Shown here: positions 6,886 to 33,678 of the stretch, one piece after another | Position numbering within the stretch: the first letter of the stretch is position 1 | Layout of the letters: every line of letters begins with the position of its first letter | Source: Lachnospiraceae bacterium | GTDB taxonomy: Bacteria > Bacillota > Clostridia > Lachnospirales > Lachnospiraceae | Direction: 5' to 3' | Length of the DNA stretch: 33,866 nucleotides | Assembly: GCA_014804615.1 (NCBI GenBank) | Contig: JAAUZL010000024.1 | Span: 161,989 to 195,854 of the forward strand | Program-made: the position numbers and the translations under genes | The notes under the pieces: model-generated | Databases searched by the model: none | Seen by the model: only the letters and a program-made list of their open reading frames with translations | What the model was told of the DNA's origin: nothing

Positions 6886-6903
6886 ATATATTCCTCCCAT
6901 CTC

Positions 6904-14335: not shown

Positions 14336-14373
14336 TCCAATCCTCCGTAACCGCCCTCGCTTCTCATCCTACG

Positions 14374-15615: not shown

Positions 15616-16284
15616 CTACAATTCCTCCGCCAGTTTGTGAAAATCGCCGTCGTACTGATAAGACTGCAGTTTACCGTTCTTTAAAACATAACATGCGTTA
15701 CACATTTCCAGATCCTGCACATCGTGTGTCGTGAGCAGCACCATGCCGCCTGCCGCCTTATAAGCCTGCAGATAGCGATATATGCTCTCCTTGCAGACCA
15801 AATCCAGAGCCGCCGACGGTTCGTCAAGCACCAGGATCTCCGGGTGAGATGCCACCGCACAACCGATGGAGAGACGCTTTTTCATGCCCCCCGACATGCG
15901 GTGCACCGGCGTTTTCAGAAAACTGTCGATCCCCAGCATCCCCAGCGCTCCATCTTTCAGCTCTCTTTGCAGAGTTTTTCTGTCGTGCCACAGCCGCAGA
16001 TTATCCCAGGCGTTTAATTCCTCTATCAGCGGATCACCCTGCGGCACGTAACCCAGCACCTTCGGAATCTGTCCCGGATGACGCAGCAGATCTGCCCCCT
16101 GATAAAAAAAGGAGCCGCCGTCCGCCCTGCGCACGCCCGCCAAAATAGAGAGCAGTGTGGACTTCCCGCTGCCGTTACTGCCAAGGATTCCCACACAGCT
16201 TCCTCTCTCCACAGAAAAAGAAATATCTTCCAACACCGTCTTTTTAGAATAGGATTTTCGTATCCCGCTCACTTCCACTTCCAT
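15616..16284 (-). CDS. ABC transporter ATP-binding protein
   Basis: The product is 222 residues from the ATG at 16284, which has a GGCGGGG site 5 bases upstream. A GTG at 16314 overlaps the previous stop but has no usable site. Motifs are complete: Walker A GSNGSGKS (35-42), Q-loop YVPQGD, signature MSGGMKKR, Walker B ILVLDEPS and switch His in LLTTHD. It powers the two ABC-2 permeases that follow without a gap. The small size and lack of a C-terminal sugar-binding domain argue against a Wzt-type polysaccharide exporter ATPase. Confidence 0.92.
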   Translation of the reverse strand: MEVEVSGIRKSYSKKTVLEDISFSVERGSCVGILGSNGSGKSTLLSILAGVRRADGGSFFYQGADLLRHPGQIPKVLGYVPQGDPLIEELNAWDNLRLWHDRKTLQRELKDGALGMLGIDSFLKTPVHRMSGGMKKRLSIGCAVASHPEILVLDEPSAALDLVCKESIYRYLQAYKAAGGMVLLTTHDVQDLEMCNACYVLKNGKLQSYQYDGDFHKLAEEL

Positions 16285-16310
16285 AGGCACCCCGCCTTTC
16301 TCACCGCCGG

Positions 16311-18362: not shown

Positions 18363-20132
18363 TTATGTATCTTTAGTGTAGTATACATATATCGTTATAC
18401 TCCCATCATCCGCCATGTACTCTCCAAGCAGGGCAAGTCCCGTCTCCTCGGCATTGGTGAGCTTAAGTCTGGAAAAAAGATATCGTCCGCCCAGCCCCCT
18501 GAAAGCCGCCGCATCCATATAGATATCATAATCCGTAGCATACACTGTCTTGGTGGCATTTACAATACTTAAATCCGTCCCCGAATACAAATAAGCCCTG
18601 GCACCCCAGTCATCATAATAGATCCGCGTTGCCTCCACTCTCTCCAGCGCAGGCGCGATGATCTCCCGGAAGTCCTCCTTATACTGCTGGGAATAAAATC
18701 CCAGATAACCATCCAGGGTGGCGATCCCATTGTATTCAAGCACCGCCGGGTGAAACCCGTAGGCCGCCGACCACTCTCCCTGATAGCCGATGTCCTCTTT
18801 AATCTCCGCAAACAGCTCTGTAGCATAAAATTGTTCGTAGGAAAGCTCGTCAACCTCTGCGCCATGAAAATACTCGTAAGCCCTGTTATAACAGGTGTTA
18901 TATAAATCATTGTAGCGGGTGGGCGTCAAAATAATCGTAAGCACCGCCACACAGACAATGCCGTTTGCAAGCCACATCTGCCACACGCCCGCATCGTAAA
19001 GCCGGATCAGAATCAGAAACAGCGCTCCATACCAGAGAAAGGGATTGAAAAAGATCGTCCGGTTAAACTGCCACCCCTCCAGAGGCGGAACCAGCCTCTC
19101 CACCAGCGACCGCAGCGGCTCCAGATCATAGAGCCCGTACACCACGCAGTTGAACAAAATAAAGAGCATGACCAGATTAAAGGGATCGCTGCCGATTCGC
19201 TTCCATTGCCGTCTCCACACATAGAAACCATTATTTACCAGAAAATACACTGCGCAGACCGGCAGCACCACCTTCCCGTGCACACTGTCCGCATGGAAGA
19301 TCCCCTCCCGGAAAACCTGACCGATCTCCTGCAGGATCTCAGGCACCGAAAGACTGGCATTCACGATGGAAGAACGGATCGTCACCTCATCACTGAACAG
19401 CATCTGCCCAAACAGCCGGTACTCACAGGCCACAAACCCAAAAGCCAGCACAAAAAGCGCTGCGATCAGCCGCCAGGCAGGCTTCCTGTTCCTTATGGAC
19501 AGCCACAGTACCGCCAGTACCAGATAGCCCAGCAGAAAAATGCCATGATACGAAAAATAGGATACCAGCGGATAGGAAAAAAGCGCCGCATACCAACCGT
19601 ACCATCTTTTCCCCTGCCCCCTGTATATCTTAACAAGCAGCCATACACACAGCGGGATCGAGGCAAAGGCAAACCCAAATGCCGGAAAAAACCATAGAAT
19701 ACCGTAGGCAAAGCCCGTCATATAAACGACAGGCCGGTAAAGCATATACTTCTCCGGGAATAGCTCCGCCGCAAGCAGCCGAAAGGAAAACATCCCCAGG
19801 AGAATCTTACCCAAAAGTCCCAGCACATATGCCATATAAGCAGGAAAGAGCATATAGAGCACACTGTACAGCGACAGCTCTGAGGGCAGATTGTCCCGGC
19901 TGACGCCGCCTAAAAAGGGCACATCCACGCCATGCTTCCAGAAGGAATCCGTGTTTTTAAGCATCTGAAACTGGGCCAGAAACAGATCCATATTATCATG
20001 GACGCCGATATAACTGCGCTCCCCGAAGCCAAAGAGCACGCCTGCCAGGAGCAGCAAAAAGCCCATGATCGGAAACAGAAACCAATATTTCGTTAGCCAT
20101 AGAAACCATTTTTGCTCTGTCAGCCGCCTCAT
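18363..20132 (-). CDS. DUF6044-like GT-C membrane protein
   Basis: The product is 589 residues from the ATG at 20132, whose A overlaps the GtrA stop (TGATG), with AGGA sites just upstream; the frame extends to 20222 but only into the GtrA gene. There are about 11-12 membrane segments, then a soluble C-terminal region from about residue 430. Just after the first helix the chain reads HDNMD (45-49), acidic residues in the first outer loop where GT-C enzymes hold their catalytic Asp. I relate it to DUF6044 from memory. Coupling to a GtrA-like protein supports use of a polyprenyl-phosphate sugar. It is probably an extracytoplasmic sugar transferase. Confidence 0.65.
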   Translation of the reverse strand: MRRLTEQKWFLWLTKYWFLFPIMGFLLLLAGVLFGFGERSYIGVHDNMDLFLAQFQMLKNTDSFWKHGVDVPFLGGVSRDNLPSELSLYSVLYMLFPAYMAYVLGLLGKILLGMFSFRLLAAELFPEKYMLYRPVVYMTGFAYGILWFFPAFGFAFASIPLCVWLLVKIYRGQGKRWYGWYAALFSYPLVSYFSYHGIFLLGYLVLAVLWLSIRNRKPAWRLIAALFVLAFGFVACEYRLFGQMLFSDEVTIRSSIVNASLSVPEILQEIGQVFREGIFHADSVHGKVVLPVCAVYFLVNNGFYVWRRQWKRIGSDPFNLVMLFILFNCVVYGLYDLEPLRSLVERLVPPLEGWQFNRTIFFNPFLWYGALFLILIRLYDAGVWQMWLANGIVCVAVLTIILTPTRYNDLYNTCYNRAYEYFHGAEVDELSYEQFYATELFAEIKEDIGYQGEWSAAYGFHPAVLEYNGIATLDGYLGFYSQQYKEDFREIIAPALERVEATRIYYDDWGARAYLYSGTDLSIVNATKTVYATDYDIYMDAAAFRGLGGRYLFSRLKLTNAEETGLALLGEYMADDGSITIYVYYTKDT

Positions 20133-20608
20133 CAGTCCTTTTCCTTCGTCTCCTTCGTCTTTCGGAACACAAACAGCTTCTGCCCGAAAAAGTTCATCAC
20201 AATAAAGATACACATACCACATATCATGGCTATATTCTCAAGAAGCGCCGTGGAGATCCTGCCTCCCGAGGATAAGCCGATCGCATCCAAAGCCCGGGCT
20301 GTAACCGGTTTCGCCACACTGAAAGCGATCAAATAACACACGATGATATTGAGGGCAAACCGCCAGGGCAGCCACTTATCTCTCTCCTCCACCTTAAACG
20401 TCAGCTTGGCGTTGGCATGGTAGGAGAACACACTGCCGATAAAATAGGAGATTCCGCTGGACAGCCAGTAATTCATGTGGATCAGGTTATACAGAACCGC
20501 CATGATCCCCCATCCCATCAATGTATTGATCACGCCCACCATCCCAAAATGGATGACCTCCATGATAAAATCCTTATACCGCATATATAAATCTCTTATT
20601 TTTTTCAT
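20132..20608 (-). CDS. GtrA-like membrane protein (putative polyprenyl-phosphate-sugar flippase)
   Basis: The product is 158 residues with four hydrophobic helices and the GtrA-family signature: FGMVGVINTLMGW near the N-terminus, SSGISYFIGSVFSYHANAKLTF in the middle, and a basic C-terminus with QKLFVFRK. The family is associated with moving undecaprenyl-phosphate sugars across the membrane for extracytoplasmic glycosylation. GGAGG lies 4 bases before the ATG. It overlaps the DUF6044-like gene by one base, and a GtrB-like synthase is encoded 7 kb away at 27976-28908. Confidence 0.88.
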   Translation of the reverse strand: MKKIRDLYMRYKDFIMEVIHFGMVGVINTLMGWGIMAVLYNLIHMNYWLSSGISYFIGSVFSYHANAKLTFKVEERDKWLPWRFALNIIVCYLIAFSVAKPVTARALDAIGLSSGGRISTALLENIAMICGMCIFIVMNFFGQKLFVFRKTKETKEKD

Positions 20609-22258: not shown

Positions 22259-22657
22259 ATGCCTACACTTAAAATACATCATATCGGATATCTGGTAAAA
22301 AAAATAGAAGCCGCCATCCATACTTTTGAAACCCTTGGATACCAAGTGGTACAGGCTTCCATGTATGACGACATCCGCAAAGTGAATATCTGCTTTATGC
22401 AAAAGGATAACTACTGTATAGAATTAGTTTCCCCGGCAGCCGAAGATTCCCTTGTATCCGGGCTGCTGAAAAAATACAAAAACTGTCCCTATCATATCTG
22501 TTATGAAACAGCAGATTTTGACAGGGATTATCAGATGTTGCTTTCAAACGGATTTATCTCCATTGATACCCCTACGCCCGCCCCTGCCCTTCAGGGCAGA
22601 GACGTTGTATTCTTAACGAGCGCATCCATGGGAATGATCGAATTATTAAGGTCATGA
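22259..22657 (+). CDS. VOC (glyoxalase / methylmalonyl-CoA-epimerase-like) family protein
   Basis: The product is 132 residues with two beta-alpha-beta-beta-beta modules. Candidate metal ligands are in family positions: His8 in HHIGYLV, Glu55 in IELVSP, His79 in PYHICYE and Glu128 in MIELL. TAAGGAG sits 7-8 bases before the ATG. It resembles methylmalonyl-CoA epimerase-like VOC proteins, but the length and context do not fix the substrate. Its stop is 27 bases from the convergent stop of the acyl carrier protein gene, so an acyl thioester substrate is an attractive but unproven idea. Confidence 0.8.
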   Translation: MPTLKIHHIGYLVKKIEAAIHTFETLGYQVVQASMYDDIRKVNICFMQKDNYCIELVSPAAEDSLVSGLLKKYKNCPYHICYETADFDRDYQMLLSNGFISIDTPTPAPALQGRDVVFLTSASMGMIELLRS

Positions 22658-22684: not shown

Positions 22685-22927
22685 TCATCCGATCTGACTG
22701 AGAATGATATCTGCCATCTCTCCCACGTTTTTCATGGATACCACCTGGCCCATGTTAAATTTCATGCCAAACTCCTGCTCCACTGCTGCCAGCAGATTGA
22801 TATGCTCCAGAGAATCCCACTCCTCGATATCGTCCGCTGTCGTTACATCCGTCACAGTGATCTCCTCATCGTCGAACACATCCCGGAACACTTCATTTAA
22901 CTTTTCAAACACTTCTTCTCTGCTCAT
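22685..22927 (-). CDS. Acyl carrier protein
   Basis: The product is 80 residues, acidic, with the phosphopantetheine site DSLEHI (Ser39) preceded by EEWDS. Size and helix pattern are those of a stand-alone carrier protein. The AAGGA site is 7 bases before the ATG, and the gene begins 23 bases after the FkbH-like stop, so the two are cotranscribed. The neighbour suggests it carries a glyceryl or related short acyl group rather than serving fatty acid synthesis, where the usual fab genes would be expected nearby. It would play the part of DltC in a Dlt-like scheme. Confidence 0.92.
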   Translation of the reverse strand: MSREEVFEKLNEVFRDVFDDEEITVTDVTTADDIEEWDSLEHINLLAAVEQEFGMKFNMGQVVSMKNVGEMADIILSQIG

Positions 22928-22950
22928 ACGCCTGTCCTTCCTCTCTGTAT

Positions 22951-24747
22951 TTATCCTTCCACCCGGATCACCGTATTTTTCGCTTCATACGCATCGGGAA
23001 TCACAAAACGCCATATTGTGACGCCCGTGTCATCTTCTTCTATCTTTTCAAACCCCATGGTTTTATAGAAATCCTTCACCATAGCGTTCTTGGCCGTAGG
23101 ATAATAATACCCCAGGATCGTTCCGATCCCGCAGTCCCTGCACGACTCTACCACACTGTCCATCATGGCATATTCCATATCCCGCTTCAGGACGCGGCAG
23201 CTCATAAGCCACAGATCCAGATGCAGCACACCGCCCTTTGTATCCGCCTCTGTTTCCTTCCTGCCGATCACTACAGAAACGACACCATTGTCACCAAACT
23301 TGTCCACAAGCTTACCATAGCGGGTAATATATTTCTCGTCCGCCGCAAAGGCCTCAATCTCTCCCTGCGTATATCTTCTTGTGGTCAGATTAAACTGGTT
23401 GCTCTTGTTCGTGAGCTGTGCGATCCTGGCCATATAGATCCCCTCAAAAGGTCCGATCGTCCCCTGCATCTCCAAAGAGAGCAGGTATTCCCGATAATCC
23501 CCGAAAAGCGCCTCCTGCTGCTTTCTGACCAGATTGGCCTTGTACATCTCATTTCGCTTTCGGTCATCTTCTGACAGGTTTGTCACTTCAAAAAAGCCTG
23601 CATGATCCAACACTCGAATATACTGCTCCGGCGTACCAATCGCCGGCGCCGCCACGCCCGCCTGCGCACTCACGATCTCCCGCTCTGCCGGGTTATCGTC
23701 TACGAACACCAGACTGTCCGGTAAAATGTTCAGTTCCTGTGCGATCTCAACGATATTCTTACTCTTAGGTTCCCAGTTGGCCTTAATAACGAGAAAATCC
23801 TCCGGCTTCAGGATGCCGTCCGGGTGATTTAAGCCTGCCATCGCATTATCATACTCATTTTTGGAATTGACGGTAAGCATCACGCCGACATCCTTCTGTG
23901 ATTTGACGTAGCTCTGGAATTCCGAATAGACCTGCCCCATGGACGTCTCCTGCCCGATCTCCAGATTCTCCGGTCCGTCGTCTCCCACGATGCCGCCCCA
24001 GAGTGTGTTGTCCAGATCCAGAACAAGGGCCTTCTTATTCCTGCCAAACACTGCCTTTATAATATTCGCCAGATTGTGCGCGAAGTCCGGGATCGCCTGC
24101 ATACACATGGCGTACTTGTACATATGCCAGTACAGGGGATCCGCCCAACGGTCCAGCCCGTACGCCGCCGACAGATACTGGATATCGTGAATATAGAAAT
24201 TCTCATGAGTTCCCGCATACTGATAAAACATCTCGTTGAGCCGGTTCAGAAACCGGATCCGCCCCTGCGGATACACCGCCTCCTGATTCCCCAGGATCCT
24301 ATAAAAAGGATACTCGAAATTATTCTGAATCACGGGACAATGATAGGTGTCCGCAATCTTATCCCACATCACTTTAAAATGCCCATACTGTTCTGCCAGA
24401 AGCTCCTCCACCCGCTCCGCGCTGTCTCGCGGTGTCGGATAAACGGCAATATTACGGTTTGTGGTATGAATAAAAATCAGATCCGGGGCAAACGCTGTAA
24501 GCTCCGGATTATCAAACATAACGTCCTGCCAGTACTGTGCATACTCCGATTCATAGAAAACAGGCCGTATTCCCTGCTGTAACAAAAACAGCTCCAACAC
24601 ACGAATGATGTCATGGGTCGTGCTGCCTCCCAGGACCGCGATCCGCTTCTCTATAAAATCCGACCGCTCCTCTAAAAGCGTCCGTTTCAGTCTCTTGGAT
24701 TTCTTTAAGATGACCTCCCCGTCAAAGGGATATTCCAGTTCACGCAT
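22951..24747 (-). CDS. FkbH-like HAD-IIIC family protein (putative glyceryl-ACP loading enzyme)
   Basis: The product is 598 residues from the ATG at 24747, which has GAGG 6 bases upstream; the GTG at 24759 is less likely. The domains run as an N-terminal SGNH-like BF1531/FkbH_N region with LGGSTTH (39-45) and WADPLYWHMYKYA (201-213), a HAD domain with LDLDNTLWGG (243-252) and FVDDNPAERE (348-357), and a GNAT-like C-terminal domain from about 440 with TNKSNQFNLTTRRY. This is the complete FkbH plan. Characterised members (OzmB, FkbH types) take 1,3-bisphosphoglycerate and load D-glyceryl on a carrier protein. The ACP gene directly downstream fits that. No polyketide synthase is nearby, so the product probably goes to an MBOAT instead (inference). 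Confidence 0.85.
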   Translation of the reverse strand: MRELEYPFDGEVILKKSKRLKRTLLEERSDFIEKRIAVLGGSTTHDIIRVLELFLLQQGIRPVFYESEYAQYWQDVMFDNPELTAFAPDLIFIHTTNRNIAVYPTPRDSAERVEELLAEQYGHFKVMWDKIADTYHCPVIQNNFEYPFYRILGNQEAVYPQGRIRFLNRLNEMFYQYAGTHENFYIHDIQYLSAAYGLDRWADPLYWHMYKYAMCMQAIPDFAHNLANIIKAVFGRNKKALVLDLDNTLWGGIVGDDGPENLEIGQETSMGQVYSEFQSYVKSQKDVGVMLTVNSKNEYDNAMAGLNHPDGILKPEDFLVIKANWEPKSKNIVEIAQELNILPDSLVFVDDNPAEREIVSAQAGVAAPAIGTPEQYIRVLDHAGFFEVTNLSEDDRKRNEMYKANLVRKQQEALFGDYREYLLSLEMQGTIGPFEGIYMARIAQLTNKSNQFNLTTRRYTQGEIEAFAADEKYITRYGKLVDKFGDNGVVSVVIGRKETEADTKGGVLHLDLWLMSCRVLKRDMEYAMMDSVVESCRDCGIGTILGYYYPTAKNAMVKDFYKTMGFEKIEEDDTGVTIWRFVIPDAYEAKNTVIRVEG

Positions 24748-24793
24748 AGTCTTCCTCACCGCCCGCCTTTCTGTACAGAAAACTCATATAAAC

Positions 24794-24820
24794 AAAAGAC
24801 AGGCTTTTCACCTGTCTTTT
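24794..24820 (-). terminator. Intrinsic terminator between the SGNH and FkbH genes
   Basis: A 10 bp perfect stem AAAAGACAGG / CCTGTCTTTT with a 7-base loop is followed by T-rich sequence on the minus strand. It lies 31 bases after the SGNH stop (24851) and 47 bases before the FkbH ATG. It should reduce but need not abolish reading into FkbH-ACP. The stem is symmetrical enough to act on the + strand too, but no + gene ends here. Confidence 0.75.
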
Positions 24821-24850
24821 ATTCTACCATATTCTGTCTGCTCTATGCAA

Positions 24851-25948
24851 TCACTCTTCCGGATAGAAATCCTTGCGGATCTTGTCAGCCAGCTTCTCCG
24901 CATACACTCTGGCGCCCAGGGGCGTCATGTGAATACCGTCCTCCAGATAATCATCCGCAGTCTCTGCATCAATACCGCTCACCTCAAAGGCGTTGAAGAA
25001 GAGCACCCCCTCTTCTTTATTTTGTTCCGCCACATAACCGGCACCTCTGGCAAAATTGATAAGAGGTCCATACCCATAATCCAGCGAATACCCGTCGCCA
25101 ATAAAAGCATTGCCGTTAAAGACCTGGCAGTAATGGGGCGCACACACCATGATACGCGCATCCGGGAAATGATTCTGCAACTCGCTGATCGCATCCTGCA
25201 AAGCCCCCGTATAGGTATGCGTACTGTCTACCGCAAGGGTATCTCCTCCCTCCAGATATCTGCTGTTGGGAATCTGCCCTGTGAGGAAATCATTGACGCC
25301 ATACTCTATGATAAAATAGTCTGTCTTATCAAAATCACAGGTTTCCAGGACATCCCCGGCAGCATATCCCTCAAAGATATCCGCGTTGATATTCCCCACG
25401 ATAGCATTCACTACTCCTAACAGACCGCGGGAGTCCCATTTCGAAAAATTATACTGTTCATCAGGCAGAAGTGCCGCTGTGGTGCCGCCCATAGACATAT
25501 TGTAGACCTTCGCATTCAGCTGCTTGCTGATAATATCCGCCGCACCGCTCTCCGTTCGGTCTCCGTCCATGATACTGTCTCCCAGAATAACGATCTGCAT
25601 ATCGTAGTTCCTGTTGTCTTCCTCCTGCACCTTCGGTTCCTGCTGAACATCCTGTGTCTTTTTCTGCTCCACCACCTTAGCGGGCTGTTCCGTCTGACCC
25701 TGACTGCTGCCTGCAGGCGCTGCTTCTTCCTGAGCCGTCACCACACTGGTGCCATCCTGGAGCTTTCTCCACTCCTCTTTCAGCTCCTCCACCGTCTGTC
25801 GATTCTGCTCCTCCAGCACAAGCCGTTCCCGCTCCACCTTCATCTGTGCCTGTCCATATACGATCTCTATAATCGCCAGAATACAGAATCCGATCAAAAC
25901 CACGAGCAACATATTGATATTCTGTCTGCCTCTCCTTGTATTTGCCAT
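24851..25948 (-). CDS. Membrane-anchored SGNH/GDSL hydrolase
   Basis: The product is 365 residues. A single N-terminal helix (about 12-31), a charged coiled-coil-like stretch (36-64) and a Gln/Glu/Pro-rich linker (70-115) carry an outside SGNH domain. All four blocks are present: LGDS (Ser125), MGGTT (153-157), YGVND (Asn219) and DGIH (Asp337, His340). The gene resembles the degenerate protein at 1-946 in the TYTGAL and CAPHYC regions. It lies upstream of FkbH-ACP across a terminator, in the same direction. It could be the transfer or trimming enzyme for the acyl group handled by the MBOAT at 28993-30528, by analogy with DltD/AlgX-type partners. Confidence 0.85.
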   Translation of the reverse strand: MANTRRGRQNINMLLVVLIGFCILAIIEIVYGQAQMKVERERLVLEEQNRQTVEELKEEWRKLQDGTSVVTAQEEAAPAGSSQGQTEQPAKVVEQKKTQDVQQEPKVQEEDNRNYDMQIVILGDSIMDGDRTESGAADIISKQLNAKVYNMSMGGTTAALLPDEQYNFSKWDSRGLLGVVNAIVGNINADIFEGYAAGDVLETCDFDKTDYFIIEYGVNDFLTGQIPNSRYLEGGDTLAVDSTHTYTGALQDAISELQNHFPDARIMVCAPHYCQVFNGNAFIGDGYSLDYGYGPLINFARGAGYVAEQNKEEGVLFFNAFEVSGIDAETADDYLEDGIHMTPLGARVYAEKLADKIRKDFYPEE

Positions 25949-26005
25949 TCTATTCCCGACCTTTCTATACTAAAAATAACTGTTGCCTGTTTTTCCTTTG
26001 CGACG

Positions 26006-26034
26006 ATTTTACCACATTTTCTCCCATTTTTACA
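26006..26034 (-). promoter_or_regulatory. Candidate promoter for the SGNH gene at 24851-25948
   Basis: On the minus strand TGG-TAAAAT (26014-26006) is a good extended -10, with a weak TGTAAA 17 bases upstream (26034-26029), about 57 bases before the ATG. The longer string ATGTGGTAAAAT also occurs on the minus strand in the 28949-28974 repeat. Confidence 0.4.
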
Positions 26035-26073
26035 CACCCCTCACAAGGAATTAAAGAAAACTTTCGGAAATCT

Positions 26074-26092
26074 TAACATTATATGTTATATT
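26074..26092 (+). promoter_or_regulatory. Candidate extended -10 promoter and overlapping inverted repeat
   Basis: TGT-TATATT (26084-26092) is an extended -10 with only a poor -35. A perfect 6 bp inverted repeat TAACAT-TAT-ATGTTA (26074-26088) overlaps it and could be an operator. It lies about 60 bases before the ATG at 26151. Confidence 0.35.
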
Positions 26093-26150
26093 ATAATAAT
26101 AAAGTTAAAAAAATATGAGCAGTAATTCACTTTCGCGAAAGGATGATCCG

Positions 26151-27959
26151 ATGTCATTGATCAATTCGAGGATACAACCCACATTCGGATATAAAAACAA
26201 CAGAAACCGCCATCAGGAACCCTCTTCCCCATTACAGTGGGCGCTCCTTTTTCTTTTGCTCCTCATCGCCTTCTATGCCATCGAGCTTCTTTTGATCAAG
26301 CCGGTGGACGGCATCAATGACGACTGGGGAATGTACAGCATACTTTCCGGAGCCTATACGGGAACACCTGACGCTCATGTCATGTTTTTTCTCTACCCTC
26401 TCGCATGGCTGCTCTCAAAGCTTTATTCCCTCTACAGCCGCATACCCTGGTACGGCCTTTTTCAGCACGGCGTGCAGATTGCCGGGCTCTTCGCCGTATA
26501 TCAGCGCAGTATGCGGATCCGTGTCAGACACAATCCGAAAGAACCTTTTTATAAATCTGCATTGCTCTGTTTTCTGTTCCTGTTTTTCATCGTAGATCTG
26601 AACGTCCTGTCGGAGGCTCAGTATACCACCACGGCCGGACTCGCTGCCGCCACGGCTCTGTTCTGCTTTGCCACTGCGCGGGTCAACCAGTCGAAGATCG
26701 GATTTTTTCTGGACAATGTACCCACCCTCCTGTTTGCATGGATCTCCTTTTGTATGCGCCAGAATATCTTTTATCTCATGGTGCCCATGGCCGGTATGCT
26801 CTGGCTTGCAAAATGGATCTTATCCCGCAAAAACGAACATGAGGATGTGGCTGTCAAGCTCCTTGGCTTTGCCCTGCTCCTTCTTCTGGGCATGGGGATT
26901 CTCTGGGGCATAAACGCTGCCGCCTACTCTTCTCCGGAGTGGTCTGATTTCCGAAAGATCAATCACTACAGAGAGCGGGTTGGGGATTTCTATGGCTGGC
27001 CTGAATACGAAGAATGTCAGGAAGAACTGAAAGCCATCGGTCTGGACGAGGAAGCTTATATGTACCGCCGAAGCGGCGCGCCTTACATCGGCTACAACAT
27101 GTCCGTGTCGGACTGGAAAAAAATGCATGACATTGCCAAAAGCTGTTATCAGGCCCGCACCAGTCTGAAAGATCGACTGAAAAATATGGCGATCTCCTCC
27201 GTGAACGTTTTCTTCTACGAGGATGGCATGCAGCCCGCCAATCTGCTTGCAGGTATTCTGCTGCTTCTGACTCCGGTGCTGATCTTTTGGCATCGCAACG
27301 CACACGCTCTATTTGTCTACCTGATGTATCTGTTCGGGCGCAGTGTCAGCTGGGGCTACGTTCTGTATGAAGGCCGGTTCCCCAAGCGCATTGCACAGCC
27401 CCTCATCACAGCAGATTTCCTGATTCTGTCTGCCATTCTTCTGGCCTTTGATCTGTTGGAACTGGAGAAGACCAGAAAATACTATATCGCACTTCCTGTC
27501 GTTTTGATGCTCAGTCTTCTCTCTCTCCACCTCACACGCGTGAATGTGGAGGAAAACTATCGGATCCATGAAGAGACCTGGCAAGGATTGAAGGAGTACT
27601 GCCGCTCCCACCCGGATAATTTCTATATATGGACCTATGCTTCCGGAACGCTGGAGCATTTCTGCGAAACGTCCTTTGCCCTCGATCAGGATACCTACCT
27701 CAATTTCATCTACACAAACTGGGGGGTGGTATGTAATCCCAACACCCAAAAAAAGCTCGCCGCCCACGGGATCGGCGACTTCGGCCGGGATCTTGTAGAC
27801 AACGAGCATGTATTTTTTATCCTGCAGGAGGCAACCTTCAACAAAGAGCACCCTGTCCTCATGTATTTCCGTCACACCTATCAAGCCGAGCTTACAACTG
27901 CCGACACCTTTACCTTAGGAGATACGGTCTATTACGTATATCACTTAACGCCCCAGTGA
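26151..27959 (+). CDS. GT-C-like multi-pass membrane protein, putative glycosyltransferase
   Basis: The product is 602 residues from the ATG at 26151, which has AAAGGA 7 bases upstream; the ATG at 26115 has no site. A cytoplasmic basic tail of about 28 residues precedes the first helix (30-49), then VDGINDDWGMYS carries an acidic pair at 57-58 in the first outer loop. About 11-12 helices in all are followed by an outer C-terminal domain from about residue 470. I do not recognise the exact family; the layout is that of GT-C enzymes using polyprenyl-phosphate sugars and resembles the GtrII- and DUF6056-like neighbours. It is monocistronic, convergent with the GtrB-like gene 16 bases away. Confidence 0.65.
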   Translation: MSLINSRIQPTFGYKNNRNRHQEPSSPLQWALLFLLLLIAFYAIELLLIKPVDGINDDWGMYSILSGAYTGTPDAHVMFFLYPLAWLLSKLYSLYSRIPWYGLFQHGVQIAGLFAVYQRSMRIRVRHNPKEPFYKSALLCFLFLFFIVDLNVLSEAQYTTTAGLAAATALFCFATARVNQSKIGFFLDNVPTLLFAWISFCMRQNIFYLMVPMAGMLWLAKWILSRKNEHEDVAVKLLGFALLLLLGMGILWGINAAAYSSPEWSDFRKINHYRERVGDFYGWPEYEECQEELKAIGLDEEAYMYRRSGAPYIGYNMSVSDWKKMHDIAKSCYQARTSLKDRLKNMAISSVNVFFYEDGMQPANLLAGILLLLTPVLIFWHRNAHALFVYLMYLFGRSVSWGYVLYEGRFPKRIAQPLITADFLILSAILLAFDLLELEKTRKYYIALPVVLMLSLLSLHLTRVNVEENYRIHEETWQGLKEYCRSHPDNFYIWTYASGTLEHFCETSFALDQDTYLNFIYTNWGVVCNPNTQKKLAAHGIGDFGRDLVDNEHVFFILQEATFNKEHPVLMYFRHTYQAELTTADTFTLGDTVYYVYHLTPQ

Positions 27960-27975
27960 GTGCTTGTCATTCCGC

Positions 27976-28908
27976 CTATTCATGCCGGACTCTCCTCGTC
28001 ACAAGGGTCAGCCTGTACTCAAAATCGCGTCTGTTTTTAAGTGCCATATTGGATAGTATCAATCCTGCAAACAGAGACTGGATCGCCGCCAGACCAATAA
28101 ACCCACAGACAAAGAGCGTAGGGAAACGATCCACCAGACCTGTCTCGATGTAAGTGATCAGAATGGGAATAAAAAGTACCACGGCAATCAACGAAAGAAC
28201 CGCTGAGCAAAGTCCGAAAAAGCCAAAGGGCTTATAATCCCGGTAGAGCTTCAGGATCGTGTGAAGCACCTTAAAACCATCCGAAAAGGTATTAAGCTTG
28301 GACTCGCTTCCCTCGGGCCTGTCCCGATAGTCCACGATCACATTTTCAATCTGCATATTGTTATAGACCGCATGGATGGTCATCTCTGTCTCAATCTCAA
28401 AGCCTGTAGAGAGCACAGGAAAGGTCTTCACAAAGCCATAGCTGAACGCCCGGTATCCTGTCATGATATCCTTGATATCACAACGAAAAAGCCGATTGAT
28501 ACTGCCACGCACAATGGAATTACCGAAATTGTGAAATGGTCTCTTATTCTCCGTAAAATATGTGGATGACAGCCTGTCGCCCACTACCATGTCCGCACTG
28601 TGAAGAAGCACCTTGTCCGCCATCTCTCTGGCGTACTCCATGGGATAGGTGTCGTCACCATCTACCATGATATAACACTCCGCCTCCACCTCACGGAACA
28701 TCCTGCGGATCACATTCCCTTTTCCCTGCATATACTCATAGCGGATCACCGCCCCCGCATCCCTTGCCAGTTCCACGGTACGATCGCTGGAATTATTGTC
28801 ATAAACATAGATCACCGCCTCGGGAAGCGCCTCTCTGGCGTCTTTTACCACTTTTGCAATGGTTTTTTCTTCATTATAACAGGGAATAAGTACCGCAATC
28901 TTATCCAT
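27976..28908 (-). CDS. GtrB/DPM1-like family 2 glycosyltransferase (polyprenyl-phosphate sugar synthase)
   Basis: The product is 310 residues. The GT-A domain has IPCYNEE (8-14), the D-x-D region VDGDDTYP (82-89), GDRLSSTYF and the MTGYRAF segment, all typical of dolichyl/undecaprenyl-phosphate hexose synthases. Two hydrophobic helices at about 228-290 anchor it, as in GtrB. It would transfer a hexose from a nucleotide sugar to undecaprenyl phosphate on the inner face. GGGAG lies 7 bases before the ATG. It follows the MBOAT gene by 84 bases. The GtrA-like protein (20132-20608) and GtrII-like transferase (30672-32189) supply the other two parts of a Gtr system. Confidence 0.88.
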   Translation of the reverse strand: MDKIAVLIPCYNEEKTIAKVVKDAREALPEAVIYVYDNNSSDRTVELARDAGAVIRYEYMQGKGNVIRRMFREVEAECYIMVDGDDTYPMEYAREMADKVLLHSADMVVGDRLSSTYFTENKRPFHNFGNSIVRGSINRLFRCDIKDIMTGYRAFSYGFVKTFPVLSTGFEIETEMTIHAVYNNMQIENVIVDYRDRPEGSESKLNTFSDGFKVLHTILKLYRDYKPFGFFGLCSAVLSLIAVVLFIPILITYIETGLVDRFPTLFVCGFIGLAAIQSLFAGLILSNMALKNRRDFEYRLTLVTRRVRHE

Positions 28909-28948
28909 TTTGTATCTCCCGCATCCTCGAATATAGTTGTTTCATTCA

Positions 28949-28974
28949 CCACATATTTTACCACATATTTTACC
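28949..28974. repeat. 12-bp tandem repeat, about 2.2 copies, between MBOAT and GtrB-like genes
   Basis: The unit CCACATATTTTA is repeated exactly twice plus CC. On the minus strand each unit contains GGTAAAAT, resembling an extended -10, so it may hold duplicated promoter or operator elements for the GtrB-like gene. Confidence 0.6.
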
Positions 28975-28992
28975 GCTTTACTATCGGATTTT

Positions 28993-30528
28993 CTAAAAGC
29001 CCTGATAGATAAACTCCGCCGCGCTGTATCCGGGGCCGTAATACCCCAGCAAAATGACGGCAAACAGAAGCGCATACCACAGAACCCACCGCAAAGGAAG
29101 CGGTCTTTTTGCCACCGCATCCCGCATCGAACCTTTTCTCTGCGCCAGAGATACCGCCCACAGAAGCAGCAGGGAAAGAACCGCCACCGCCGTCTCGATC
29201 CCATCAAGTCCCAGCTGCAGCAAAGACCCGTCCCAGAGGATCTGGGGATTCCATACGCCCACCGCGCCCTTCAGCATCGCCAGCGCATCCCCCACCGAAG
29301 CGGCCCGAAAAAACAGGTCTCCGATACACACCAGAAAAAAGGTGCGCAGGATCCGGATCCCGGCAACAAACTTCCCCTCGGCAGAGAGAGATATTCTCTC
29401 CATGATACGAACGCAGGGCGGGGCAAGAAGCTCCTCCATCACGATATAGAACCAGTGTAAAAGCCCCGACCCGATCACAAATTTCCAGTCACCGCCATGC
29501 CAGATACCCACCGTCAGCCACAGCACAAACATCGCCAGAAAGGTTGCGTACTGCTTGCCCCGTTTTTTCCCGAATTTCTTTTTAAAAGACTTGTTGATAT
29601 CTGTAAAAAGCTTCGTGCGCAGAAGCGGATAAAACACATAGTCCTTCATCCACACGCCCAGTGTGATGTGCCATCTGCGCCAATACTCCGTCACGCTTTT
29701 GGCGAAAAAGGGTGTCCGAAAATTTTCCGGCAGCGCTATGCCCAGGCTCTCCGACATTCCCAACACAATATCCATGCACCCCGAAAAATCCGTATAGAGC
29801 TGGAAGGCATAGCAGGCGGTGGCTATCCAGATGTAGGCACCGGCATAAGCCTCATAACTCCCGTAAACGGTATTCACCAAAACGCCCAGCCGCTCGGCGA
29901 TCACCAGCTTCTTAAAAAAGCCCCAGACCATACGCTGCAGCCCTCTTGTCACCTGTCGGTAATCAAAGGGATGCGGCGCAAAAAAGGAATCCGCATGCTC
30001 TCTGTACTGCAGGATCGGCCCGGAGATCAGATTCGGAAAATACAGTCCGTAGAGCATAAGCTTCCCGAAATTTGTCTGCGCCGGGGCAAGCCCGTAATAC
30101 ACGTCGATCACATAGCCCAGCAGAGAGAAGGTGTAAAAAGATACCCCCAGCGGCACCAGAAAATCCACTCCGGAAAGCACATCCCCGGAGCCGCCAAACA
30201 GACCTGCGATACCATTTACTGTATTGATCACGAAATTGACATATTTCAGTACGAAAAGAATCCCAATGTTGACCAGTATAGTCAGTAGAAGGATCCCTCC
30301 GCGCTTTTTCTCTTTCTCTGCAGAAGTCTTTCCCAGAAGTTCCGCACCCAGAAAACAGGTAAACGACGACACCAGCGGGTAGACAAGCAACACCCCCTGC
30401 CCTGCAAGCAGGCAGTAGCAAAAACTGCACAGCAAAAGGAATCCCCACTGAAATTTTTGGGGAATACTATAGTACAACAGTAGTAAAACTGCAAAAAAGC
30501 ACAAAAAATAAAAAGAGGTGATTCCCAT
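28993..30528 (-). CDS. MBOAT family O-acyltransferase, second of three
   Basis: The product is 511 residues from the ATG at 30528, which matches the usual family start (MGITSFYFL); an ATG at 30543 is the alternative. It has about 12 helices and an intact core: LYTDFSGCMD (244-253), YWRRWHITLG (282-291), IWHGGDW with catalytic-type His344, and LLHW with His358. It differs from the other two MBOATs in using a YPLLRTK segment in place of IPLGGNR and an extra basic loop KSFKKKFGKKRGK (313-325). No SGNH gene is directly attached; the nearest is 24851-25948. With the FkbH-ACP pair in the same neighbourhood this is the best candidate to use an ACP-bound acyl group. Confidence 0.92.
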   Translation of the reverse strand: MGITSFYFLCFFAVLLLLYYSIPQKFQWGFLLLCSFCYCLLAGQGVLLVYPLVSSFTCFLGAELLGKTSAEKEKKRGGILLLTILVNIGILFVLKYVNFVINTVNGIAGLFGGSGDVLSGVDFLVPLGVSFYTFSLLGYVIDVYYGLAPAQTNFGKLMLYGLYFPNLISGPILQYREHADSFFAPHPFDYRQVTRGLQRMVWGFFKKLVIAERLGVLVNTVYGSYEAYAGAYIWIATACYAFQLYTDFSGCMDIVLGMSESLGIALPENFRTPFFAKSVTEYWRRWHITLGVWMKDYVFYPLLRTKLFTDINKSFKKKFGKKRGKQYATFLAMFVLWLTVGIWHGGDWKFVIGSGLLHWFYIVMEELLAPPCVRIMERISLSAEGKFVAGIRILRTFFLVCIGDLFFRAASVGDALAMLKGAVGVWNPQILWDGSLLQLGLDGIETAVAVLSLLLLWAVSLAQRKGSMRDAVAKRPLPLRWVLWYALLFAVILLGYYGPGYSAAEFIYQGF

Positions 30529-30566
30529 ACCGTTCGTTCCCATGCCTGTATTATTATTCCTATCTT

Positions 30567-30671: not shown

Positions 30672-32189
30672 ATGAAAAGCAAAAATTTCCCCGCTTGGTT
30701 AACCATAGAAGCAGCCGATAAACGCCTCTTCTTTTCGTTGACGGCTCTATACGTCATTTATACTCTGCCCATTTTTCTGGCAAACCGCCTTTATCAGGAC
30801 GATCTCTCCAGAAGTCTCTATGGTGTCACCGGCTGGATGAACGATGCAAGACCTCTCACGGAGCTCTTGCTGCGCTGGCTGGGCGGCGGCCGGCCTCTTG
30901 GCAATGTGTCGCCTCTGCCGCTTCTATTATCCGTACTGCTTTTGGCCTACACCCTCACTCTGTACGGAAAACGATATCTGTCTGCAGGACAGTTTCTGCC
31001 TGCGCTTGTCATCGGCTTTTGTGTGATCGCAAACCCTTTTTTCCTGTCCAATCTTTCCTACAAGTTTGACTGTGTGACCATGGTTCTGGCTCTCTGCGCT
31101 GCGATCTTACCCTATGTTGTGCCGGAAGAAGAGGTCCTTTATAAAATATTTTTCTTTTCCTTTTTCCTGTGCATGGTCACCCTTACCACTTATCAGCCCT
31201 GCTGCGGCGTCTACATCAGTCTCTGGTTTTTAGAACTGTTTTTCATGCTGTTTTCAGCGCACATCGACTTGCCGAGGCTCATTGTCCGGGCGGCAGCCTG
31301 CGGTGTGAGTGTGATCGTTTATAGATATGCGATCCTGAACCGCAGCATCCTCCCCGCAAACGGCGGCTGGCAGCCTTCTGCCTATCAGTTCTCCTGGCAA
31401 TCAGAGAATGGAATCATCGACAGCATCGCCCAGAATTTTCAAGTCTTTCTGACGCTGTCCGGTGAATATATCGCAGGGCTTCCCAATGTCCTTTTGCTGT
31501 TTGCGGGTATCCTCCTGCTTTTAAGTATCGCCTTTACAGCACTGGAGCTTTTCCATCTGGAAAAACCAATGTATCAGAGGATCCTTACTCTTTTCTATCT
31601 GATCCTTCTTCCCTTCTTTTTGTTATTCAGCACCCTTGCGCCGCTCCTGATCCTGACTGCTTCCGGCGCCAACATAAGCGTCCACGCTCTGATCTGTCTT
31701 TGCAGCCTCGGATTGTGGATCGGCATCATGTTCTCGGCTCTCTACCGCAGGCTGCCGCGGCTTGGCGTCCTCCTTCTCCTGCCCTGCCTGCTCTTCGCCT
31801 TTACCTTTTCTTACACTTATGGTAATGCCCTGACAAGCCAGAAACAATATGAGACATACCTGACCTACAGCATTGCCCATGACGTGGAGAGTCTGAACGC
31901 AGACGATACCTGCCGTGCCCTCACGGTATCCGGCAGAGCGCCACGCTCTCCTGAGGTTTCCCGGCTGGTGGAAAAATATCCTCTCTTTGCCCGGTTAGTG
32001 CCCACCTATCTCACAAACGCCTCCTACATGGGCGGAGCGCAGCTTTTACATTACACGCAAACTCCTTTCAACTATGAAGCCCTGACCGAAGAAGATCAGA
32101 ATCTGATCAAAAACGCCGCTCCCCTTCTCTCAAACAGTGTCTATGCCTGCTACAAGAACGGGAATAAGATAATCATCGTATTTAAATAA
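30672..32189 (+). CDS. GtrII-like glucosyltransferase-domain membrane protein
   Basis: The product is 505 residues. The first helix (about 18-37) leads to YQDDLSRSLYGVTGW with an acidic pair at 43-44, then DARPLTELLLRWLG and PLPLLLSVLLLA, which match the GtrII (PF14264) glucosyltransferase domain as I remember it. About ten helices follow, with an outer C-terminal domain near 400-505. These enzymes add glucose from undecaprenyl-phosphate-glucose to a surface polymer and need GtrA and GtrB partners, both encoded in this window. A GGAG lies 11 bases before the ATG. It is followed after 37 bases by the third MBOAT, so glucosylation and acylation are probably co-expressed. Confidence 0.8.
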   Translation: MKSKNFPAWLTIEAADKRLFFSLTALYVIYTLPIFLANRLYQDDLSRSLYGVTGWMNDARPLTELLLRWLGGGRPLGNVSPLPLLLSVLLLAYTLTLYGKRYLSAGQFLPALVIGFCVIANPFFLSNLSYKFDCVTMVLALCAAILPYVVPEEEVLYKIFFFSFFLCMVTLTTYQPCCGVYISLWFLELFFMLFSAHIDLPRLIVRAAACGVSVIVYRYAILNRSILPANGGWQPSAYQFSWQSENGIIDSIAQNFQVFLTLSGEYIAGLPNVLLLFAGILLLLSIAFTALELFHLEKPMYQRILTLFYLILLPFFLLFSTLAPLLILTASGANISVHALICLCSLGLWIGIMFSALYRRLPRLGVLLLLPCLLFAFTFSYTYGNALTSQKQYETYLTYSIAHDVESLNADDTCRALTVSGRAPRSPEVSRLVEKYPLFARLVPTYLTNASYMGGAQLLHYTQTPFNYEALTEEDQNLIKNAAPLLSNSVYACYKNGNKIIIVFK

Positions 32190-32226: not shown

Positions 32227-33678
32227 ATGCTTTTTAATTCCATGACCTTCGCTGTCTTTTTGACAGTGGTATTTATCTTGTATCATATCGTGCCTGCCAG
32301 ATTCCGCTGGATCTTCCTGCTGGCGGCAAGCTACGCTTTCTACATGAATCTTCATGTGGCCTATGGGCTTTTGCTCTTCGCCTCCACCGCTCTGACCTAT
32401 TTCATGGGTCTGAGTCTGGAAAAAGCACCTGACAAAAAAGCAAAAAATCGCTGTCTGCTCAGTGGTATTCTGCCCCTGATCGGTATCCTCCTTATCTTTA
32501 AGCTGGGGGGACCTGCTATCGACAGGCTGAACGCCCTGATCGACGCGGGACGGCTTACCATACATCCTGTGACCCTGCGGATCCTTCTTCCGGCGGGTGT
32601 CTCTTTCTACTTTTTTCAGTCCATGGGATATCTCATCGATGTCTATAAGGGAAAAATCCATGCAGAGCGCCATTTCGGCTACTACGCCCTGTTCGTCTCC
32701 TTCTTTCCACAGCTGCTGGCAGGCCCCATCGGACGGGCAGACGCTCTTCTTCCACAGTTAAAAAAGGAGCGGACTTTTGATTATGATAAGGTAACCTACG
32801 GCCTGAAACTGATGGCCTGGGGATATTTTAAAAAGCTGGTGATCGCGGACATCTTTGCCGTCGTGGTGGACAAGGTATACAACAATCCTTACAGCTATGT
32901 GGGGCTTGTCTTTATCATCGTTACCGTCATGTTTGCCATCGAGATCTACTGTGATTTTTCCGGCTATTCGGACATCGCCATCGGCTGTGCCAAGCTTTTT
33001 GGCATCGACCTGATGACCAACTTTAAGAGTCCCTACTTTTCCTTCTCCATCCGGGAATTCTGGAGCAGATGGCATATCTCTCTGTCCACCTGGTTTCGGG
33101 ACTATGTCTACATCCCCCTAGGCGGCAACCGGGTGAAGAAATGGCGGCACTGCGCTAACCTGTTTCTCACTTTTTTAGTCAGCGGTTTTTGGCACGGCAG
33201 TTCTCTGACCTACCTTGTCTGGGGCGGTCTTCACGGCCTTCTGCAGATCCTTGAGGTACTGCTGCATCCGAAGAAGCCTGCTGACAGTGCAAAGAAGAAT
33301 GCACCGCGAAAATGGTTCTGGCAGCTTCCCCTTACTTTTATTCTGGTCTGCCTCACCTGGATCTTTTTCCGGGCAAACACCATACAGGATGCTTTCTGGA
33401 TCCTCTCCCGGCTGTTCTGGGATGCAGCCAGACCTCTGAACTACTTAAAAACTGCCGCGATCTGTCTGGATATGCCCTATATCTCCATGTTTGGCATGGC
33501 ACTGTCCGTAATCGTCCTCTTTGTTTATGATCTGGTTTCCCTAAAACGGGATGTGATCGAACTGGTATCCGCCCAAAACTGTCTGGTTCGCTGGGCAGTG
33601 TATGTGCTGCTGCTTACAGTGATCGCTCTCTTCTCCAGCAAAGGGATTGCAACGGAGTTCATTTATATGGCATTCTAA
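32227..33678 (+). CDS. MBOAT family O-acyltransferase (DltB/AlgI-like), third of three
   Basis: The product is 483 residues. GGAG lies 6 bases before the ATG. Family motifs are intact: PQLLAGPIGR (161-170), YCDFSGYSD (241-249), FWSRWHISLSTWFRDYVYIPLGGNR (278-302 region), GFWHGSS with His323 and LHG with His336. It is closer in type to the 7974-9449 enzyme than to the 28993-30528 one. The next gene starts 15 bases downstream and encodes a membrane-anchored protein that is probably its SGNH partner, repeating the MBOAT-SGNH order of the other unit. The acyl group and acceptor are unknown. Confidence 0.93.
   Translation: MLFNSMTFAVFLTVVFILYHIVPARFRWIFLLAASYAFYMNLHVAYGLLLFASTALTYFMGLSLEKAPDKKAKNRCLLSGILPLIGILLIFKLGGPAIDRLNALIDAGRLTIHPVTLRILLPAGVSFYFFQSMGYLIDVYKGKIHAERHFGYYALFVSFFPQLLAGPIGRADALLPQLKKERTFDYDKVTYGLKLMAWGYFKKLVIADIFAVVVDKVYNNPYSYVGLVFIIVTVMFAIEIYCDFSGYSDIAIGCAKLFGIDLMTNFKSPYFSFSIREFWSRWHISLSTWFRDYVYIPLGGNRVKKWRHCANLFLTFLVSGFWHGSSLTYLVWGGLHGLLQILEVLLHPKKPADSAKKNAPRKWFWQLPLTFILVCLTWIFFRANTIQDAFWILSRLFWDAARPLNYLKTAAICLDMPYISMFGMALSVIVLFVYDLVSLKRDVIELVSAQNCLVRWAVYVLLLTVIALFSSKGIATEFIYMAF

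Follow-up and report, generated by a model that had tools for sequence, protein, structure and literature searches.

A putative Dlt-type acyl relay with an FkbH-type loader at a glycan locus of a Lachnospiraceae bacterium

We propose that a locus of a gut Lachnospiraceae bacterium probably encodes an acyl relay of the Dlt type in which the loader has been exchanged, such that a glyceryl group loaded onto an acyl carrier protein (ACP) by an FkbH-type protein would be exported by a membrane-bound O-acyltransferase (MBOAT) to a surface glycan. Read from sequence, the set of parts, their catalytic residues, their conserved linkage and the relatedness of the MBOAT to those linked to DltA all suggest this arrangement. 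The preliminary description of a Dlt-like set with FkbH in the place of DltA was supported by the linkage in relatives and by the nearest kin of the MBOAT, which are FkbH- or DltA-linked.

Table 1. Features of the locus. The window is the whole stretch of DNA analysed, 33,866 nt of Lachnospiraceae bacterium GCA_014804615.1 (JAAUZL010000024.1, positions 161,989-195,854); coordinates are window positions.
Feature	Coordinates	Strand	Remarks
VOC metalloenzyme, methylmalonyl-CoA epimerase / glyoxalase I like	22259..22657	+	Convergent with the ACP gene; Glyoxalase_4
ACP, stand-alone, 80 aa	22685..22927	-	Phosphopantetheine site Ser39 (WDSL)
FkbH-type HAD-IIIC loader, 602 aa	22951..24759	-	FkbH_N, HAD domain and C-terminal domain with Cys521
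Membrane-anchored SGNH hydrolase/transferase, 365 aa	24851..25948	-	PF13472, PF00657
Large membrane protein, unknown family	26115..27959	+	Without Pfam match above cut-off
GT2 glycosyltransferase, AglJ / dolichyl-phosphate-hexose-transferase-like	27976..28908	-	PF00535 E 2.8e-18
DltB-like MBOAT, 516 aa	28993..30543	-	PF03062; long basic segment flanked by the invariant His292 and His349

The four minus-strand open reading frames previously assigned to FkbH, ACP, SGNH and MBOAT were confirmed, each reaching curated cut-offs. The loader carries an FkbH domain well over its threshold (TIGR01686, 265.9 bits vs 146.65, E 4.6e-79) together with FkbH_N (43.7 vs 27). Its residues D248, D250, K332, D354 and D355, which we take to be the HAD catalytic residues, were conserved in 158/158 FkbH proteins, and Cys521, presumably functional as well, in all 156 proteins covering that position; the PKS-linked FkbH of Streptomyces has the same HAD residues and Cys motif. 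The predicted structure of the loader (mean pLDDT 69, pTM 0.44) was too weak for use. The ACP gene, which follows that of FkbH after 23 bp, matched PP-binding (23.3 vs 20.8), and W37-D38-S39-L40 was conserved in 20/20 sequences, in agreement with the phosphopantetheine serine first described. The MBOAT (PF03062, 52.8 vs 27) had DltB (6bug/8jem) as its only solved match at E<=1 (E 9e-25). The SGNH protein (Lipase_GDSL_2, 50 vs 32.9) retained S125, N219, D337 and H340 in 35/35 sequences; its predicted model consists of a long N-terminal helix (9-66) and an SGNH domain (about 115-365). The VOC protein matched Glyoxalase_4 (E 1.9e-16) and fell under the TIGR03081 cut-off (55.2 bits vs 114.95), and H8, E55, H79 and E128, presumably the four metal-ligand positions of the fold, were invariant in 77/77 sequences. 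It was linked to FkbH-ACP pairs in both MBOAT and N-acyltransferase loci, which is consistent with the earlier idea of a donor-side enzyme, and may be regarded as a candidate acyl-ACP epimerase.

The four parts do share one strand, as had been described, but they do not form an uninterrupted run: the GT2 gene and the oppositely oriented membrane protein gene split the MBOAT from the SGNH gene. The order MBOAT-GT2-SGNH-FkbH-ACP was found on a single strand, judged by gene positions, in at least 5/80 relatives (L055, L062, L063, L077 and L089), and the membrane protein, which was not detected in these five, is an inserted neighbour between two gene groups and not a part of the system. The GT2 protein scored 199 bits against TIGR04182, under its cut-off of 325, and is a candidate producer of a polyprenyl-phosphate sugar. 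Glycan genes, including GT2/GtrA/GT-C-like genes, surround the locus, and no ketosynthase was found nearby, the only ketosynthase (PF00109) match of the genome being on a different contig.

Two sets of relatives were surveyed: the 80 FkbH loci nearest to that of the window, and a family-wide set of 71 FkbH loci (72 matches over the cut-off minus the window's own, with four weaker partial matches left out). Of the 80 nearest loci, 76 had an ACP at no more than 600 bp and 69 a window-type MBOAT at no more than 7.5 kb (60/65 of the loci with 5 kb flanks had this MBOAT); an SGNH gene was linked in 68 and a VOC gene in 59. Searches for ketosynthases (one FabF seed), AMP-ligases, N-acyltransferases, MaoC and SDR proteins used one or a few seed proteins, which can miss distant members; with these, neither a ketosynthase nor an AMP-ligase was found near any of the 80. 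In this near set, the neighbourhood survey first suggested, for FkbH-ACP pairs with MBOAT and SGNH genes and without polyketide synthases, agreed with the Dlt-like reading. The opposite outcome, in which FkbH-ACP pairs are tied to other acceptors instead of MBOATs, did not occur in this near set but was partly seen family-wide. There, a same-strand MBOAT occurred within 2.5 kb in 29/71 loci. An MBOAT lay within 7.5 kb in 31/71, whereas random placement of 6-15 MBOATs per genome would give 2.5-6.0 such loci (a null that ignores the clustering of glycan genes), and no MBOAT was found within 7.5 kb in 27 of the 54 fully flanked loci. The MBOAT linkage is recurrent, requiring 16 changes on a quick FkbH tree (79 rows; FkbH reading frames <450 aa left out and loci cut by contig ends scored as without MBOAT). 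ACP, FkbH, MBOAT and VOC also occur together in another phylum, on pSymB of Sinorhizobium meliloti and in Rhodobacteraceae SC52, both alphaproteobacterial and with MBOATs on the AlgI-like side of the tree, and 13/71 family-wide loci have the AlgI-like MBOAT type only. Since AlgI-like MBOATs are thus also found near FkbH-ACP pairs, adjacency alone is no proof of carrier use.

We ranked MBOATs from 299 Lachnospiraceae genomes by the window protein alone, independently of the window-type profile (which was built from FkbH-linked rows), and among the 32 most similar ones FkbH was found at up to ~5 kb from 12 and a DltA-like ligase near 16 (the match being weak in one case, L275); the remaining 4 had no loader, a 3.5-kb contig holding one of them. 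Gene lists were also drawn up for every MBOAT neighbourhood in G207, G257 and the genome of the window, where loci were not chosen by profile and only the MBOAT type was assigned by it. In a separate per-genome count of MBOATs, no more than about six candidates were scored for each genome, which makes those counts minimum values. A loader lay within 4.5 kb at 4 of the 10 MBOATs of the window's genome, exactly the four of the window/Dlt-like type; three of these, beyond that of the window, belong to DltA-like cassettes, and a formyltransferase accompanies two of the three. The six AlgI-like MBOATs of this genome have 39 residues between the histidines, and no ACP was found within 4.5 kb of them. 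In G257, no loader or ACP was found near four window-like MBOATs, whose long inter-histidine segment is likewise present. In a tree with two added genomes (nine further rows left out and, as for the other trees, very long open frames trimmed), a 22-row FkbH-linked clade stands (99/86), the wider carrier-linked group being without resolution.

The MBOAT histidines described as His344 and His358 are His349 and His363 when counted from the first ATG; the former proved invariant, but the latter did not (H in 16/27). Together with His349 (GIWHG), it is His292 (RRWHITL) that is invariant, both being present in 24/24 FkbH-linked window-type, 19/19 DltA-linked and 5/5 canonical DltB proteins. Between them lie 56 residues with a charge of +9 in the window MBOAT, 55-102 residues in the FkbH-linked window type (n=24), 53-56 in DltA-linked MBOATs (n=19) and 39 in those without loader (20/20), as measured by an alignment with both histidines in 99/101 rows (exceptions, Smel_L235 and one L196 row); the long-branched L158 and L163 MBOATs were left out of this alignment and of the MBOAT trees. 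Segment charge was +8.5, +5.2 and +4.2 for these three groups, so that DltA-linked MBOATs are not clearly apart from loader-free ones and only the FkbH-linked type is strongly basic.

In the mechanism that we propose, the substrate of FkbH would be an acyl phosphate from glycolysis, 1,3-bisphosphoglycerate being the likeliest; the HAD site of FkbH would remove the phosphate, and no ATP-dependent ligase would be required because the acyl phosphate is already activated. The glyceryl, or a related hydroxyacyl, group would pass to the phosphopantetheine of ACP Ser39, probably via Cys521, and the VOC protein may epimerise C2 of the bound group. The acyl-ACP may then dock at the cytoplasmic face of the MBOAT, perhaps on the long basic inter-histidine segment, and the MBOAT would carry the acyl group through the membrane, where an extracytoplasmic hydroxyl would receive it either straight from the MBOAT or possibly via the anchored SGNH protein. 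The acceptor is probably a surface glycan made by the neighbouring GT2/GtrA/GT-C-like genes.

Other readings of these parts were considered. Founding FkbH proteins work in polyketide clusters, and FkbH has PKS neighbours on Streptomyces and Methylosinus plasmids; that FkbH and ACP here belong to such a small-molecule (polyketide or peptide) pathway, with an unrelated MBOAT, is nevertheless very improbable given the glycan genes around the locus and the rarity of ketosynthases near FkbH (0/80 and, with the same seed, 2/71 family-wide). We also think it unlikely that FkbH-ACP feeds a cytosolic acyltransferase that makes a sugar with an N- or O-acyl group ahead of export, while the MBOAT is an independent O-acetylase located nearby because both serve one glycan. 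GNAT/PglD-type N-acyltransferases within 2.5 kb at 14/71 family-wide loci, NeuB at 6/71, the AlgI-like MBOATs near some FkbH-ACP pairs and the suomilide clusters, where the accessible parts of the reports propose different roles for an FkbH domain and an MBOAT of the same cluster, would all agree with it. However, an N-acyltransferase and an MBOAT occurred together within 2.5 kb in 0/71 loci (Fisher p 4e-4 for the exclusion, without kinship correction), no N-acyltransferase was matched within 2.5 kb in the 80 nearest loci (three seeds, by which distant members can be missed), and DltA-like ligases are found near MBOATs of the window's type.

The cargo and the last step could also differ from our proposal. 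MaoC (12/71) and SDR (9/71) genes at family-wide loci, the VOC linkage and the methylation and sulfonation on the carrier proposed, in the accessible suomilide text, for FkbH-loaded glycerate would suit the same relay with another hydroxyacyl group loaded, or with glyceryl remodelled on the ACP before export; with MaoC and SDR each found within 2.5 kb at only 1 of the 80 nearest loci, we give this a low probability. It is plausible, though less likely than not, that the SGNH protein is an acyl-removing esterase and not a DltD counterpart, the MBOAT finishing the transfer, which would be compatible with the main explanation. The model has a generic SGNH fold nearest to lipases and carbohydrate esterases, and DltD was not among the VIA or Foldseek matches listed, an absence that excludes nothing; against the esterase reading are the SGNH linkage to FkbH and the presence of PatB (7tjb, rank 31) among the fold matches.

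If the glyceryl relay is real, Dlt-type envelope modification would not be limited to amino acids but would include a hydroxyacid derived from glycolysis, and the sugars on the surface of a gut bacterium may carry glycerate rather than alanine. More tentatively, and on balance less likely to be right, carrier and DltB-like MBOAT may be a general chassis for the export of acyl groups, with an interchangeable loader deciding what is carried, namely a DltA-like ligase, such a ligase with a formyltransferase (N-formyl-aminoacyl) or FkbH (glyceryl), with VOC converting D- to L-glyceryl-ACP before export and L-glycerate esters like those of gellan gum as the outcome. This suggests that gut Lachnospiraceae could write several chemically different surface acyl marks with one chassis. 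For glycerate esters on bacterial polysaccharides, gellan L-glycerate (PMC9104527) being a known example, the locus offers a set of genes that can be tested; the accessible text of the gellan papers names no gene for glyceryl transfer. In the literature as far as it was accessible, we found no description of FkbH as an MBOAT donor, matches for FkbH with MBOAT being aeruginosin/suomilide peptides only and those for glyceryl, acyl carrier protein and membrane-bound O-acyltransferase a plant enzyme only; nothing was found for HAD-IIIC with MBOAT, or for HAD-IIIC with acyl carrier protein and O-acyltransferase.

Among known systems, the closest solved sequence to the window ACP is 2lml (E 3.2e-18), which we take to be the Geobacter carrier GmACP3, with a proposed role in LPS. 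FkbH-like enzymes have been proposed, in the accessible parts of the sources, to load glycerate from 1,3-bisphosphoglycerate (PMC7489565, PMC13122637), the pathways that form glyceryl-ACP being those of polyketides, tetronates and suomilides. The window shares with these an FkbH domain and a carrier, whereas no ketosynthase was found near and FkbH is partnered, among glycan genes, by an MBOAT. As in O-acetylation by AlgI with AlgX/AlgJ or by PatA/PatB, an MBOAT is accompanied by a candidate extracytoplasmic SGNH partner, but the longer inter-histidine segment and the dedicated ACP set the window apart from the AlgI/PatA type, which we define, by a criterion of our own, by a short segment and no dedicated carrier. 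With Dlt D-alanylation the locus shares the presence of a loader, a small acidic dedicated carrier with a phosphopantetheine serine and a DltB-like MBOAT with both histidines, together with an anchored SGNH-type protein as a candidate counterpart of DltD. Unlike in Dlt, the ACP is nearest to 2lml, DltC not being among the NCBIfam models listed for it, and the MBOAT scores 144.8 bits against a DltB (TIGR04091) cut-off of 375 that none of the 10 MBOAT matches of the genome reached. The Dlt loader is the AMP-forming D-alanine ligase DltA, and none of the six PF00501 matches of the genome lies within the window; the locus appears to be a Dlt variant with an FkbH loader in place of the amino-acid loader.

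The genes that the preliminary description had recognized as encoding FkbH, ACP, SGNH and MBOAT proteins do lie together on one strand, each matching its family above the curated cut-off, on contig C24 of a genome of 3.63 Mb. The neighbouring genes, among them GtrA, GtrII, DUF6044, DUF6077 and two AlgI-like MBOATs, fit a surface-glycan region.

Features of the window and of two related loci of the same genome (positions are those of the window unless a locus is named)
Feature	Position	Strand	Remarks
Large surface protein	1006-6900		1964 aa; DUF285, BspA-type leucine-rich repeats, List_Bact_rpt domain
Partner gene	6904-7959		351 aa; partner of the next gene
AlgI-like MBOAT	7974-9449
DUF6077	10278-11459
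ABC transporter set	13217-16314
ABC-2 membrane protein	13217-14335		part of the set
ABC-2 membrane protein	14374-15615		part of the set
ABC ATPase	15616-16314		part of the set
DUF6044	18363-20222
GtrA	20132-20608
VOC	22259-22657	+	convergent with ACP gene (end to end)
ACP	22685-22927	-
FkbH	22951-24759	-	23 bp to ACP
SGNH	24851-25948	-	91 bp to FkbH
Membrane protein	26115-27959	+	opposite strand, between GT2 and SGNH
GT2	27976-28908	-	84 bp from MBOAT gene
MBOAT	28993-30543	-
GtrII	30672-32189
AlgI-like MBOAT	32227-33678		same cluster as FkbH locus
Cassette in L127	8329-12656 (L127)		formyltransferase gene between ligase and ACP
Cassette in L128	8053-12124 (L128)		formyltransferase gene between ligase and ACP

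FkbH residues D248, D250, K332, D354 and D355 were kept in 158/158 proteins, in an alignment that included a PKS-linked Streptomyces copy, and Cys521 in all 156 proteins covering that position. The ACP motif W-D-S39-L (20/20), the SGNH motif residues (35/35) and the four ligand positions of VOC (77/77) were likewise kept, and His292 and His349 of the MBOAT align with the RWH and WHG motifs of DltB (6bug, 8jem). FkbH-like enzymes have been proposed, in excerpts from two sources, to load carriers with glycerate from 1,3-bisphosphoglycerate (PMC7489565, PMC13122637). As the window FkbH has the same catalytic residues, the simplest assumption is that it would perform the same loading; the acyl group would then be exported by DltB-type transfer.

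The survey proposed in the preliminary description, for MBOAT and SGNH genes linked to FkbH-ACP pairs without polyketide synthase genes, bore out the linkage in the 80 FkbH loci nearest that of the window (the best 80 of 433 confirmed), which belong for the most part to Lachnospiraceae. An ACP gene lay within 600 bp of FkbH in 76 of these; within 7.5 kb, a window-type MBOAT (DltB-like, with a long segment between the two histidines) was present in 69, the other, AlgI-like type only in one, SGNH in 68 and VOC in 59, and neither a ketosynthase nor an AMP-ligase was found in any. A same-strand MBOAT follows within 400 bp in 17 loci (16 window-type, one other type). Among the 11 loci lacking a window-type MBOAT, five (L040, L051, L066, L084 and L105) are cut off no more than 4 kb upstream by the end of their contig, one (L074) has an MBOAT farther away, one (L102) has the other type, and four (L058, L064, L068 and L112) had no MBOAT within 7.5 kb of FkbH.

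A second survey picked FkbH by family cut-off in 299 Lachnospiraceae genomes and not by likeness to the window; 63 genomes had an FkbH above it, with 71 copies outside the window genome. An ACP gene lay within 600 bp of 56 copies. Within 7.5 kb, 31 of the 71 loci had an MBOAT, of window type in 18 and of the other type alone in 13 (among the 54 loci with full flanks, 27 had one), and just two had a ketosynthase. Random placement of 6–15 MBOATs per genome would give 2.5–6.0 of 71 compared with the 31 observed, under a null that ignores clustering of glycan genes. VOC was found within 7.5 kb of 17 copies, 15 of them on the same strand. Counting only same-strand neighbours up to 2.5 kb away, FkbH was accompanied by an MBOAT (29/71), a GNAT/PglD-type N-acyltransferase (14/71), MaoC (12/71), SDR (9/71) or NeuB (6/71), which argues that the FkbH-ACP pair serves different terminal enzymes according to locus. 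MBOAT and N-acyltransferase were never found together in that span (0/71; Fisher P = 4e-4, uncorrected for kinship). Since FkbH-MBOAT linkage required 16 changes on a quick FkbH tree, it has apparently arisen or disappeared time and again, within the limits of that tree and of cut contigs.

In six loci (L162, L183, L193, L201, L202 and L221) FkbH-ACP adjoins a GNAT-type enzyme and NeuB, which suggests N-glyceroylated nonulosonic acids. In ten (L190, L198, L200, L208, L210, L211, L213, L217, L222 and L227) it adjoins a MaoC dehydratase, with SDR too in 6/10 and no MBOAT within 2.5 kb; here remodelling of the ACP-bound acyl group is possible. Plasmid records place FkbH loci beyond Bacillota too. 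Rhodobacteraceae SC52 and Sinorhizobium meliloti pSymB have ACP, FkbH, MBOAT and VOC in one place, their MBOATs falling in the AlgI-like part of the MBOAT tree; Tistrella pTM1 has ACP, FkbH and a divergent MBOAT, and Paroceanicella ACP, FkbH and VOC without MBOAT. FkbH-ACP is partnered with a WcbI-type enzyme in Niveispirillum, FkbH stands beside pseB and an N-acetylneuraminate-synthase-family gene in Maritalea, and the Streptomyces and Methylosinus copies are inside polyketide clusters. Elsewhere, a Subdoligranulum match (51% identity) has FkbH and ACP, with no MBOAT found.

The VOC protein is similar to methylmalonyl-CoA epimerase and to glyoxalase I. It occurs with FkbH-ACP in MBOAT loci (L185, L195, L207, L219 and L223) and N-acyltransferase loci (L167, L169, L193, L194, L201 and L221) alike, a distribution that would suit an enzyme of the donor thioester. 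1,3-Bisphosphoglycerate is the D form. Gellan, according to an excerpt from one source, bears L-glycerate (PMC9104527), and we hypothesize that an epimerase such as VOC would bridge the two.

MBOATs of the 299 genomes were also ranked by likeness to that of the window. In the top 32, 12 have FkbH within about 5 kb and 16 have a DltA-like ligase close by (matched strongly in 15, weakly at L275), with a DltC-like ACP recognized in 12 of the 16; three (genomes G190, G165 and G087) had no loader seen nearby, and the locus of one (G233) stops at a 3.5-kb contig. In the window genome, a loader lies within 4.5 kb of four of ten MBOATs, exactly its window/Dlt-like ones, whereas the search over the same span around the other six, including the AlgI-like MBOAT at 32227-33678 in the FkbH cluster, found no loader and no ACP. 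The MBOAT tree contained a 29-row group (98/97) of 25 FkbH-linked members, three DltA-linked members and L229 of genome G257, which is without loader. When the MBOATs of G207 and G257 were added, a 22-row FkbH-linked clade held (99/86) but the wider carrier-linked group did not resolve. All ten MBOATs of G207 are of the other type, one being near FkbH-ACP-VOC; G257 has four window-like MBOATs (L229, L262, L263 and L264), with no loader or ACP gene found nearby.

The segment between the two invariant histidines was compared by length and charge. It spans 55–102 residues (mean 58.4, charge +8.5) in FkbH-linked window-type MBOATs (n=24), 53–56 (+5.2) in DltA-linked ones (n=19), 56 (+7.5) in the four loader-less members of the top 32, 46–47 (+6.4) in canonical DltB (n=5) and 39 in 20/20 MBOATs without loader (+4.2). 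Other-type MBOATs near FkbH (n=16) have 39–56 residues (mean 45.8, +5.0), opposite-strand neighbours of FkbH (n=6) 39–43, and four of five G257 MBOATs 55–56. Length thus marks the window type, and strong positive charge the FkbH-linked members. A basic segment would suit an acidic carrier protein, and we infer that it may be the docking site.

Three other cassettes in the window genome combine a DltA-like ligase, a small ACP and a window-like MBOAT. Two of the three, those of L127 and L128, also hold a formyltransferase gene and have counterparts in L243, L244 and L271, where ligase, formyltransferase and MBOAT share one cassette and an ACP was recognized in L243 and L271; across all five, a DltC-like ACP was recognized in four. 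Their composition suggests export of an N-formyl-aminoacyl group. Given these extra cassettes, several export systems that depend on a carrier and differ in cargo seem to operate in this genome.

The Dlt-like reading of the preliminary description is, at the level of sequence, well supported for parts and kinship. None of the ten MBOATs of the window genome reached the DltB cut-off. Without the Dlt-defining loader, and with an MBOAT below that cut-off, the window set falls outside the definition of a Dlt system, although most likely it would function like one.
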